64,000 bases of DNA from Candidatus Dadabacteria bacterium (GTDB lineage Bacteria > Desulfobacterota_D > UBA1144 > Nemesobacterales > Nemesobacteraceae). Location of the stretch: assembly GCA_022827275.1 (NCBI GenBank), contig JAJDTG010000007.1, positions 1-64,000 of the forward strand, written 5' to 3'. This document shows positions 46,482-49,468 of the stretch, in pieces. How positions within the stretch are numbered: the stretch's first letter is position 1; every line of letters begins with the position of its first letter. Both the position numbers and the translations under genes were made by a program. The notes below the pieces were generated by a model that saw only the letters and a program-made list of their open reading frames with translations, searched no databases and was not told where the DNA came from.

Positions 46482-46730
46482 ATGGGAGACAAATTGACTG
46501 AAAAAACCGTATCGCCGAAAGAATTTGGCGACTCTGAAAAAGTTACCAAAGAAGCTGGCGACGAATCTCCGATTGCTCTGGATAGTGATGAGCATGGGGG
46601 CTCTCCGGCCGCCGCTTCCGTCGAGGAGAAACCCCGCTTTAAAGTTGCTGATTCCGATGAAATTGATGCGGCTATTGCAAAGCGCAAAGACAAGATACAG
46701 CCAATTCTAGATTATCTAAAAGATAAGTAG
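46482..46730 (+). CDS. Putative antitoxin partner of the Doc-like gene
   Basis: This is an 82-residue, acidic, mostly disordered protein. It begins MGDKLTEKTV, has a low-complexity Ala/Ser/Glu middle, and ends with a charged helix (SDEIDAAIAKRKDKIQPILDYLKDK in pieces). No Phd-type DNA-binding domain is visible. Start ATG 46482 follows GAGG by a short space; earlier TTG and ATG starts exist. The Doc-like gene starts 2 nt after its stop, the layout of a toxin-antitoxin pair, so an antitoxin role is inferred from position. Confidence 0.55.
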   Translation: MGDKLTEKTVSPKEFGDSEKVTKEAGDESPIALDSDEHGGSPAAASVEEKPRFKVADSDEIDAAIAKRKDKIQPILDYLKDK

Positions 46731-46732
46731 GC

Positions 46733-47104
46733 ATGAAATATTAATCTGCCAAGAAAGTCACTACCATCCATGAACAAGTTGTTGGACCTAACGAACTGCA
46801 AGGCATAACCCTGAATAAATCCATTGAGTCTGTTTTGGCTCGTGTCGAGAACCGCGTAGCCTATGAAACAATTGAGGATGTGTTTGAGCTTGCTGCTTGT
46901 TACGCGTGTTGTATCGCAGTTGGTCATGCGTTCAATGATGGTAACAAGAGAACCGCATTTAAGGCAATGGATACTTGCTTGACCGTAAACGGCATAGAGT
47001 TGGATTTTGACACGATGGAAGCGGGTGAGATGATGGTTAAAGTTGCCCAAGGTATTGTTAATGAAAAAGAATTGGCTGAGTGGCTTAGAGCTCTGGTTCG
47101 ATAA
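46733..47104 (+). pseudogene. doc: Doc-family (Fic fold) toxin with stop at codon 4
   Basis: The frame from ATG 46733 reads MKY, then TAA, then SAKKVTTIHEQVVG and continues unbroken to 47104. Doc proteins begin with a short strand and helix (LSVEDVLAIH type), so the codon that is TAA here most simply was TTA (Leu). The catalytic Fic/Doc motif is HAFNDGNKRTAF, complete with His and the Asp/Asn/Lys/Arg residues that in P1 Doc transfer phosphate to EF-Tu. A downstream TTG (46835) could start a 90-residue form that lacks the first helices. Either the toxin is dead or the base is an error. Its antitoxin partner overlaps upstream. Confidence 0.8.
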
Positions 47105-47167: not shown

Positions 47168-49468
47168 CTAAGAAAGTAGGCGGGCAAGTTTACGATAGCA
47201 ATCCAGCGCTTTTCTTTTCTCATTTTTAGGGAGCTTTCTGGTCACCATCTTGAATGCATTGTCTAGACCCCATGCGTATCCGATGTCCACTATTATTTCC
47301 CCAGATTCCTCCGCAGTTCTTCGAGCGGGAATTTTGTTACGGTTAGATAGTTCGACCAATTCGTGAATCTTGTTTTGGTCCGAGATCAGCACCGGCGCAC
47401 AGCATTCAATTGCTCTGCCCATAACAAGTGTTGCTAGACGTGCCGGATTGGTTGGAATCTCATCCCAGATATTCCAGATGATTGGAGCACAATTCCTCTG
47501 TTTTGCTTGCTCTAAAATGTGGAAGCACTCGGTTGTGTCCAGAATCCGTTCTTTTGGTATCAATCCTACATACACTAATCCTTGATCAGTTTCTACATAA
47601 CAACTAGGTTTCTCCAAGATTTGCCAACCCCAACGCCCCAAGACTGCTGGCTGTTCGTTGACCAACTTAACACGGAGGGGTTTTCTAGGTGTTCCACTCC
47701 GGTCTTTTTGTGATTTTTTTGGGCATGGAAGTTTAGACCAATCCAACGGTTTGCCAACCATACTCATGTCAAGGTTGACTATATAAACGATTCCCGACTC
47801 GTTGCATTGCGAGAGGGGCTGTGCGACTTCGGAGCCTGCCTTTCTTCCCGTGAGTTCTCTACCATCTGGAGAAAAGGCAAAAGGATGAGTTCGGCTTCCA
47901 CCTTTGTCATGTAGTGTGCACAGGGCAAAGAAGCGATTTTCTACCGCCCTTAGACGCAGCATTGAAGACCATTTGATGTCTTTGACATTGTCGAAACTTG
48001 GATTTACCCACACACGAGCGCCACGTGAAGCCAGAAAGCGGGGAAGTAAACCTAAGTATTGATCGTGACAAATAGTGGCTCCAACTTTGACGTTTCCCAA
48101 TTCGAAAGTTGGAAGCATGGTGTTCGGCTCCCAATCTGGCTTCTCGAAGGCAACTGCTTCCGCGGTGGAGTGTTTTGTATATAAATGACGACAAGAGCCG
48201 TCGGGACCAATGCGAAGGAGAATTTGCCAATCAGCTGAATTTCCTGCTAAATTGAAATTCCTTTCAACAGCACCTACCAACAATGGAGCATCTAGATCTG
48301 ATGCGAGTTTCAGCAGCAGCTTGATGCGTGTACTGTCAACTGAAGAGATGTAGCCTTCTGGAAAGAGTACAAAATCGACAGTTTCACCGGCGAACGAGGC
48401 GAGGGTAGGTATGTCAGGTTCCTGGGCTCCTGCCCCGCTCGGTGGAACACCGTTTGAAGTTGTTGCATCCACTTTAGGAAAAACTAAAGCCACCCGTAGA
48501 GTGGAGTGCTCGGCAGCAAACTGAGTGTCGGTTTTCTCCATCGTTTGACTGGATGGAGCACTGTCCTGAAATGCGATATTCAAGAAACGCCTGCGGTCGT
48601 CGTTGCTGTCGGGGTCAAGTAAACACCATGCGAAATCGCGGGCGTACAGTCTTAAAGTTGGGAGGAAACCTTTGAGTGATGGGATAATATCTCGGAGGGT
48701 GTCATACCAAGCCCGCTGTTCGTCGCGGTAAGGTGGGTCGTTATCCTTTGCATTATGCTTTTCACATAGGGCCGTCCAGCGCAATCTGGAGAACCCTAGG
48801 GGTTGGCAGTCTGGGTATCTAGAAAGTGAGAGCTTCCGTGGTTTTGTAAAATGTTGACTTTCGTCAAACTCAACAATGAATCCAGGGTTGGGGACCCAGA
48901 AGTCGCAAGGTGGCAAAGTTTTGGCTCTTGCAAAGTTTTCGAACCCGAAGCCACGGTATCCTTCCAAGGTGGTAACCACTTTCTGCAAAGCGTGAAAGAT
49001 GGAGGTCTCCGAGTAGGAGGAAATACGTGTCGACCACTGGAATTTATGTTCTCGCACGCATTCTCCGTAGATTCGCTCCAGAATCTCGCGAACCCGTGTT
49101 TTGCATTCAGGACACCGCTCGTCGGAATGACGTATAAGTTTGCTTGCGGATCCCGTTTTCATCTTTGGATCAGACGGAAGTGTGGATAGCTTAGTTTTAT
49201 TCTGGTTACCACAAGTGCACTCGATAATATCAAATCCAAGAGATTCGAGAAATTTGTTGGACTCGGAGCCACCTTCAAACTCATCTGACCGTAAGAATCG
49301 TCCGGTGGCTATTTTATGAGCTAATGCAATGGTGTATTTCGGAGGAAAGTGATACCCGTCTTTTGCCAAACAGTAGTTTCTGCTTTTCCTCCGTGGAGGG
49401 ATACCATCTCGGCTGATGTGCTGAATTGCCTCTAAAACATTGGCCTTTGTGATGAATGAAGGGACCAT
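47168..49468 (-). CDS. Multidomain nuclease-nitrilase fusion, putative defence effector
   Basis: This is a 766-residue protein from ATG 49468. Residues 20-85 resemble the N-terminal head of ScoMcrA-type restriction proteins: NYCLAKDGYHFPPKYTIALA, then FEGGSESNKFLESLGFDI. Cys84/86 and Cys119/122 make a zinc-ribbon-like knuckle. Asp189, Glu200, Asp202 and His206 (in PCDFWVPNPGFIVEFDESQH) fit a Vsr/DUF559-type nuclease core. Residues about 324-565 are a carbon-nitrogen hydrolase (nitrilase) domain with Glu371 (FPEGY), Lys432 (YTKHS) and Cys467 (TICHDQ). Residues about 630-766 match nothing I know. A nitrilase domain also occurs fused to the reverse transcriptase of DRT type 1 anti-phage systems. 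No partner gene shares its strand. A role against phage is inference. Confidence 0.7.
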   Translation of the reverse strand: MVPSFITKANVLEAIQHISRDGIPPRRKSRNYCLAKDGYHFPPKYTIALAHKIATGRFLRSDEFEGGSESNKFLESLGFDIIECTCGNQNKTKLSTLPSDPKMKTGSASKLIRHSDERCPECKTRVREILERIYGECVREHKFQWSTRISSYSETSIFHALQKVVTTLEGYRGFGFENFARAKTLPPCDFWVPNPGFIVEFDESQHFTKPRKLSLSRYPDCQPLGFSRLRWTALCEKHNAKDNDPPYRDEQRAWYDTLRDIIPSLKGFLPTLRLYARDFAWCLLDPDSNDDRRRFLNIAFQDSAPSSQTMEKTDTQFAAEHSTLRVALVFPKVDATTSNGVPPSGAGAQEPDIPTLASFAGETVDFVLFPEGYISSVDSTRIKLLLKLASDLDAPLLVGAVERNFNLAGNSADWQILLRIGPDGSCRHLYTKHSTAEAVAFEKPDWEPNTMLPTFELGNVKVGATICHDQYLGLLPRFLASRGARVWVNPSFDNVKDIKWSSMLRLRAVENRFFALCTLHDKGGSRTHPFAFSPDGRELTGRKAGSEVAQPLSQCNESGIVYIVNLDMSMVGKPLDWSKLPCPKKSQKDRSGTPRKPLRVKLVNEQPAVLGRWGWQILEKPSCYVETDQGLVYVGLIPKERILDTTECFHILEQAKQRNCAPIIWNIWDEIPTNPARLATLVMGRAIECCAPVLISDQNKIHELVELSNRNKIPARRTAEESGEIIVDIGYAWGLDNAFKMVTRKLPKNEKRKALDCYRKLARLLS

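Follow-up and report, generated by a model that had tools for sequence, protein, structure and literature searches.

What does a protein do that carries a restriction-type head, a nuclease and a nitrilase in a single chain? The question is raised by a gene in a 64,000-nucleotide stretch of contig JAJDTG010000007.1 from a Candidatus Dadabacteria bacterium (this whole stretch is hereafter the window; the host genome is 1.77 Mb). The gene lies at 47168..49468 on the minus strand, where an open frame with its ATG at 49468 and its stop codon at 47170-47168 encodes 766 amino acids; an alternative TTG start 12 bases 5' of the ATG would give 770. A first-pass annotation had located this frame, omitting its strand, and had numbered D189, E200, D202, H206, E371, K432 and C467 as they stand in the translation. 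It had considered the protein on its own and missed that it belongs to a broad family of modular proteins, which is patchily present, exchanges its modules and, in some members, is found beside defence genes. We read this family, with a probability of about 0.43, as a type IV restriction-like immune nuclease controlled by a nitrilase-fold module.

Among 60 genomes, including the window's own, five had matches: the window, the sister genome G007, and G005, G022 and G038, which matched the nitrilase part only. The nuclease was found in 5 of 386 genomes, i.e., the window's genome, the sister and three other lineages with standalone nucleases, and a plasmid scan gave a weak nuclease-part match (E 0.01), protein P0002. 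An improved nuclease alignment that combined the five genome copies with P0002 was used to scan genomes from 84,980 species and yielded 179 nuclease relatives. The 80 loci discussed below are the best 80 of these 179, ranked by likeness to the window nuclease, and were found with a pair of peptide patterns in which catalytic residues are included; their class, split and head labels were assigned by hand. One locus, L047, was excluded from the tree and the residue counts, and L020 is the contig of G007.

The constant part of the family is the nuclease domain (residues 103-302; 48563..49162, minus strand), whose core reads D189-x10-E200-F-D202-E203-S-Q-H206. We found D189 in 79 of 80 nuclease rows (the window and 79 loci) and E200, D202, E203 and H206 in all 80, the latter counts being inflated because those motifs had helped to find the loci. 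These catalytic residues were retained across all partner classes described below. The spacing and letters of D-x10-E-x-D-E are those of the active site of PvuRts1I, in which D57 is followed by E68-I-D70, instead of the usual (D/E)XK, and by E71, whose mutation abolished activity (available part of PMC4027163); the PvuRts1I sequence read from plasmid Rts1 has D-x10-E-I-D-E-A-H-H. The earlier annotation had noted a nuclease-type core, and its resemblance to modification-dependent restriction enzymes was recovered in a comparison with eight N-termini of the PvuRts1I family (hhalign E 2.5e-6 over 26 columns; E 0.048 or worse in eleven control pairings). When a profile of 55 nuclease sequences was searched against the PDB, AbaSI came out on top with a weak match on the active-site motif (E 0.056); the hits after it, at E 0.08 and worse, were copper ATPase domains on another stretch. 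In Pfam, all 55 rows matched DUF7255 at E 0.1 or better, three matched PvuRts1I-like_N (best E 0.031) and two matched DUF559. The window domain itself was below the gathering score of DUF7255 (PF23913; 18.1 versus 27 bits), which P0002 exceeded. Based on these similarities, we take the domain for an atypical PD-(D/E)XK nuclease, as a candidate rather than a proven one. DUF7255 was named in no paper of the literature searched, which largely lacked subscription journals; if our reading is true, this family gains a predicted active site as well as partners.

The nuclease is followed in the window protein by a nitrilase (carbon-nitrogen hydrolase) domain at residues ~320-590 (47699..48511, minus strand), which scored 46.7 bits on PF00795, well above the cut-off of 23.2 bits (E 3.4e-12). 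The complete triad that had been proposed from the sequence, E371, K432 and C467, was present in 16 of 16 aligned nitrilases of its class (the window plus 15 class A loci; of the 18 in that class, L020, L032 and L042 are broken copies and were not counted). Fold prediction, one of the checks that the annotation had suggested, agreed with this assignment. An AlphaFold2 model of the window protein, made with a 55-sequence alignment, had a mean predicted local distance difference test score (pLDDT) of 88.2 and a predicted template modelling score of 0.67, with pLDDT below 50 in three stretches: 89-109, which separates head and nuclease, 303-319, which separates nuclease and nitrilase, and 434-437 within the nitrilase. 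The PDB structures matched included 1ems (Z 21.7, root-mean-square deviation (rmsd) 3.2, 226 residues) and 5g3o (Z 21.5, rmsd 3.1, 223 residues), and all 50 structural matches listed were nitrilase-superfamily chains. Searching the full-length protein against Pfam to E 1 gave only CN_hydrolase (367-538) and a weak DUF7255 match (195-239, E 0.068), and nothing was above NCBIfam cut-offs.

The nitrilase is only one of several partners of the nuclease. A partner was fused to or beside the nuclease in 64 of 80 loci, distributed among five classes: A (18 loci), B (17), C (17), D (7) and E (5). Class A consists of the nitrilase and the C-terminal domain (the nitrilase alone in two broken copies). 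The whole architecture of the window protein was present in one open frame at nine loci (L021, L023, L024, L025, L026, L028, L030, L048 and L057), which span Nitrospirota, Latescibacterota, Pseudomonadota, Acidobacteriota and, as an archaeon, Aenigmatarchaeota. These nine other whole copies rule out a chance fusion or an assembly artefact. In 15 of the 64 linked loci the partner was a separate neighbouring gene in the same direction, and in two (L031 and L034) it was convergent; the others were fused, or interrupted by stops or frame shifts.

Classes B and C appeared to be related to the nitrilases of class A, with a difference in the active site. Class B was linked by profile comparison to class A (E 2.1e-5) and to class C (E 1.2e-5). 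Direct comparison of C with A was negative (E 0.12, and 0.38 in an earlier clustering), so that the kinship of class C with nitrilases rests on its link to B and on its predicted fold: a model of L041 (pLDDT 88.9) matched carbon-nitrogen hydrolases with Z 14.7 and rmsd 4.0 over 207 residues. Both classes have FPGG, LPAG or TCGG-like motifs where class A has FPEG, which implies that the catalytic Glu is missing in them, and the Lys and Cys were invariant in B (15 of 15 aligned, out of 17) and C (17 of 17). Class D is an unrelated domain that had no link to nitrilases; a connection between B and D had been produced by the misfiled L064, which belongs to class B, and it disappeared after reassignment (E 0.044). 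Another locus, L081, belongs to class D, with its contig ending within the domain. Class E was defined by eye from a CGE-N motif and its position, and it is a possible nitrilase-like class, with a weak profile match to B (E 0.027).

The distribution of partners over the nuclease tree suggested repeated exchange. On a careful nuclease tree, the five partner states required 18 changes, compared with a mean of 36.6 for shuffled labels (31-42 in 200 shuffles) and a minimum of four if every partner class were one clade. Thus, partners partly follow the nuclease, with repeated exchange as well. The tree as printed is a quick version, in which 31 of 75 inner branches are open. Besides, the nearest relatives of the window nuclease after the sister copy were in Nitrospirota and Latescibacterota, with 70-74% nuclease identity, which points to transfer between phyla.

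Some loci differed further from these classes. By eye, L064 (class B) and L063 (class D) had a similar far C-terminal extension (RVKFRVYYNVL and QVRFRVYPHIL, respectively), which hints at a further movable domain. Two Gemmatimonadota loci, L027 (3927-5522) and L029 (7914-10238), had another C-terminal part common to both, and in L029 the sequence continued with a region weakly similar to uracil-DNA-glycosylase (E 0.046). In Geobacillus, L082 (7725-8606) was a head-nuclease protein with no recognised partner, and its nuclease was near-identical to that of the fused class B locus L075; transposase-like frames downstream of L082 suggest that an insertion may have removed the partner. The Asgard archaeal loci L092, L095 and L096 formed one diverged branch with no recognised partner, and in L092 the first catalytic Asp was replaced by N. 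Also, two Methanosarcinales class B loci (L046 and L050) had an insert of ~90-100 residues before the DQIG motif.

The remaining parts of the window protein are a head and a C-terminal domain. The head (residues 1-85; 49214..49468, minus strand) had been described as like that of ScoMcrA proteins, and a profile of 33 heads bore this out: its best PDB match was ScoMcrA 5ZMM, residues 4-94 (E 2.3e-5), followed by designed proteins (E 0.005 and 0.48). The same profile matched the N-termini of two plasmid HNH_2 endonucleases (hhalign E 4.8e-13). The window head alone gave no match in the PDB and was very weakly similar to these two HNH_2 proteins (E 0.3 and 4). A head was present in 42 of 80 loci; that of ScoMcrA is described as small and of unknown function (PMC6224610, available part). 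Downstream of the head, the annotation had proposed a CxC/CxxC zinc knuckle, which does not hold as one unit. In the nuclease-family alignment, C119 was found in 75 of 76, C122 in 76 of 76 and C282 in 78 of 78 filled rows, and C119-x-x-C122 (49103..49114, minus strand) may bind a metal together with C282. As for the CxC, C84 was kept in 9 of 10 rows of headed class A proteins (it was absent in L048), and the class B, C and D examples displayed had no such CxC. For the C-terminal domain, which had been called novel and placed at 630-766, no family was indeed found: with 16 members, sequence searches gave nothing in the PDB and a single match at chance level in Pfam. Its start, however, lies nearer residue 597 (597-766; 47171..47680, minus strand). 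This domain was well predicted, its profile matched class A loci only among the 80, and it was detected in 2 of the 386 genomes, the window's and the sister.

Among known systems, the protein resembles type IV restriction enzymes in some of its parts. PvuRts1I and AbaSI, which depend on 5-hydroxymethylcytosine, likewise have a nuclease with the atypical D-x10-E-x-D-E site ahead of a C-terminal partner, whereas here a nitrilase fold is present instead of SRA, and the ScoMcrA-type head, the CxxC and the C-terminal domain are extra. Partner profiles of classes A (nitrilase and C-terminal domain), B and C matched PvuRts1I C-termini with E 0.43 or worse, and we do not class the protein as a PvuRts1I/AbaSI enzyme. 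ScoMcrA, a type IV enzyme with head, sulfur-binding, SRA-like and HNH domains, has the N-terminal head domain in common with the window protein, in which no HNH or SRA was found in Pfam to E 1. The nuclease and head are restriction-type parts, and the pairing of this nuclease with several partners in bacteria and archaea suggests an undescribed immune family. Consistent with the annotation, which knew of no described system with this domain order, none was apparent from titles or abstract beginnings among the matches listed in the literature searched.

A constant nuclease with an intact site and a changing partner suggests that cutting is the common act and that the partner decides when it occurs. 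In the model that we favor, the PvuRts1I/AbaSI-like nuclease, often with a ScoMcrA-type head, would cut DNA, and the variable C-terminal module, which occupies the place of the base-reading SRA of PvuRts1I and consists here of an intact nitrilase plus a C-terminal domain of its own, would act as a sensor or licence for cutting. Its pocket may bind or process an amide- or nitrile-like group, either on a small molecule of infection or on a modified base; oligomerisation of the module might bring nuclease domains together, and the outcome would be protection against phage. If so, a broad bacterial and archaeal immune family has been overlooked, in which a type IV-like nuclease works with a repeatedly exchanged nitrilase-fold partner, and it offers several testable cases of a nitrilase-fold role in immunity.

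Several observations weigh against this model. We are aware of no member of the family with demonstrated activity, DNA binding or protection. The link between the nuclease and PvuRts1I is short and, as judged by the AbaSI match, weak by sequence, and 16 of 80 loci had no recognised partner. Between the window and sister copies, the ratio of nonsynonymous to synonymous substitution rates (dN/dS) was 0.17 overall, 0.16 in the head, 0.25 in the nuclease and 0.28 in the C-terminal domain; the nitrilase, at 0.07, was the most constrained part, a pattern expected of an active enzyme no less than of a sensor. Scans of phages, plasmids and viral contigs gave no full-length copy; the viral scans relied on patterns of short peptides and may overlook distant relatives. 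In a viral protein library the best match was a phage CN hydrolase (E 3.8e-6), followed by two unnamed entries (E 0.008 and 0.016), a DUF559 protein (E 0.38) and a VRR-NUC protein (E 0.71). Finally, a scan of 144 neighbours showed at most three members per defence family among the first 25 of 273 families listed, and the strong defence neighbours described below were selected by eye.

The main rival explanation, which we consider unlikely on balance, makes the nitrilase rather than the nuclease the effector. Its toxicity would be like that proposed for DRT1, a defence reverse transcriptase of class 3: foreign or damaged DNA would be sensed by the head and nuclease fold, and this would assemble or unlock the nitrilase, which would deplete or convert an essential metabolite and stop the infected cell. 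Nitrilases are called uncommon in antiphage defence in the available part of PMC13275509, which describes DRT1, the example that we found, as a large multidomain protein whose nitrilase has its catalytic residues and is proposed as a defence effector requiring assembly. The full triad of class A and the low dN/dS of the nitrilase are in line with such a role. The exchange of partners is less so, with classes B and C lacking the catalytic Glu, class D having no link to nitrilases, and the nuclease core being kept in all; an invariant Lys and Cys in the Glu-less classes is more readily explained by a ligand pocket than by a single toxic hydrolase common to all. PADLOC, which includes DRT models, gave no match for the window protein. 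The comparison with DRT1 had been made in the annotation, and the common domain type is its sole basis: the window protein has a nuclease, and RVT_1 had no match in either the protein or its genome; the annotation had noted that a reverse transcriptase is absent nearby. An actual relative of DRT1 is therefore ruled out.

Two further explanations appear improbable. In the first, the two activities would act in series, the nuclease cutting DNA and the nitrilase removing or altering an amide or nitrile on a modified base or released nucleotide. Both active sites are retained in class A, and the best Foldseek match of the window model was 2vhh, a Drosophila 'pyrimidine degrading enzyme' (E 2.6e-12). 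However, fold matches are uninformative on substrate, and the Glu-less classes probably cannot hydrolyse in the usual way. In the second, to which we give equally little weight, the protein would be a nuclease of DNA repair or housekeeping, equipped with a metabolic sensor, and would have no role in defence. Vsr acts in DNA repair. A likeness between it and the N-terminal domain of PvuRts1I is described (PMC4157451, available part), some standalone nucleases (L016 and L018) were found by eye among apparently ordinary genes, and the window gene adjoins addB. On the other hand, just two of the 13 genomes in the genus have the gene, which lies there at a variable Doc site; it has close relatives in other phyla, and several relatives have defence neighbours.

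The least probable, and in our view quite remote, version would make the nitrilase fold the reader of a restriction enzyme, taking in a flipped base of nitrile, amide or related type (in class A perhaps held as a covalent Cys467 adduct, in the Glu-less classes B and C by reading other groups without hydrolysis) and so licensing the nuclease to cut. The 7-cyano- and 7-amido-deazaguanines of phages would be natural candidate bases for such a reader, which, if true, would be a new mode of modified-DNA recognition common to bacteria and archaea.

Returning to the immune nuclease model, we examined genes beside the relatives, for which the annotation had proposed a search for defence islands. Defence genes were found next to several of them, and an excess over other genes was not established. 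Ten neighbours, which were chosen by eye and show the existence of defence neighbours rather than their frequency, all matched PADLOC models (10 of 10). For example, PglZ (E 9.5e-292) and DrmD (E 0) directly preceded L082 in Geobacillus, and the type IV enzyme mREase_IV (2.6e-86) and a Mokosh-like protein (1.9e-49) were near L068. The others were a IIG restriction-methylase near L033 (4.8e-74), TIR-TM near L027 (1.2e-58), HEC-05 near L062 (4.4e-48), a type II methylase near L045 (1.1e-73), Dsr1 near L026 (8.7e-63) and PDC-S66 near L048 (8e-13). Similarly, the plasmid member was surrounded by GmrSD, Z1, PLD-type restriction and cytosine methylase genes. The 144 neighbours of the wider scan were drawn from 249, with at most two per side and at least 110 amino acids, nearest first up to a total-residue limit; the set excluded proteins of more than 1000 amino acids, recognised partners and one piece of L069's own system.

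The window gene itself is located among Doc, addB and apparent housekeeping genes. Within the genus, addB was present in 13 of 13 genomes, and the nuclease-nitrilase gene preceded it, in the identical place, in two (G000 and G007). In G011, the order was fumarase, OB-fold gene, antitoxin-like open reading frame, Doc (in two frames) and addB, and the nuclease-nitrilase gene was absent. Doc preceded addB in G010, G001 and G012, and the OB-fold gene did so in G005 and G003; none of these site genes was found within the 1.5 kb fetched for G002, G004, G006 and G008, and the contig of G009 ends at the site. The names of fumarase and the ordinary neighbours came from sequence reading, and that of the OB-fold gene from a sub-cut-off Pfam match (E 0.0033). 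The G+C content of the nuclease-nitrilase gene (0.475; 0.456 at third positions) was lower than that of the flanking housekeeping genes, fumarase (0.556; 0.672) and addB (0.501; 0.566); that of the Doc region was 0.445. Rfam gave no match near the gene, and no repeat near it was judged to be an insertion end. The sister copy (L020, 7677-9974), from the Candidatus Dadabacteria metagenome-assembled genome G007, was a full-length homologue with 93% identity, also over the nuclease segment. It had one in-frame stop, at codon 487 within the nitrilase (TGG to TAG), which indicates that this copy is broken or misassembled.

The variable site also holds a putative toxin-antitoxin pair on the plus strand. 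The Doc toxin gene (46733..47104) matched TIGR01550 (E 5.1e-19), and the open reading frame before it (46483..46730), which had no family match, is antitoxin-like by its position. The Doc frame had a TAA at codon 4 in the window, was open in G007 and was split into two frames in G011; toxin-antitoxin decay thus seems to recur at this site.

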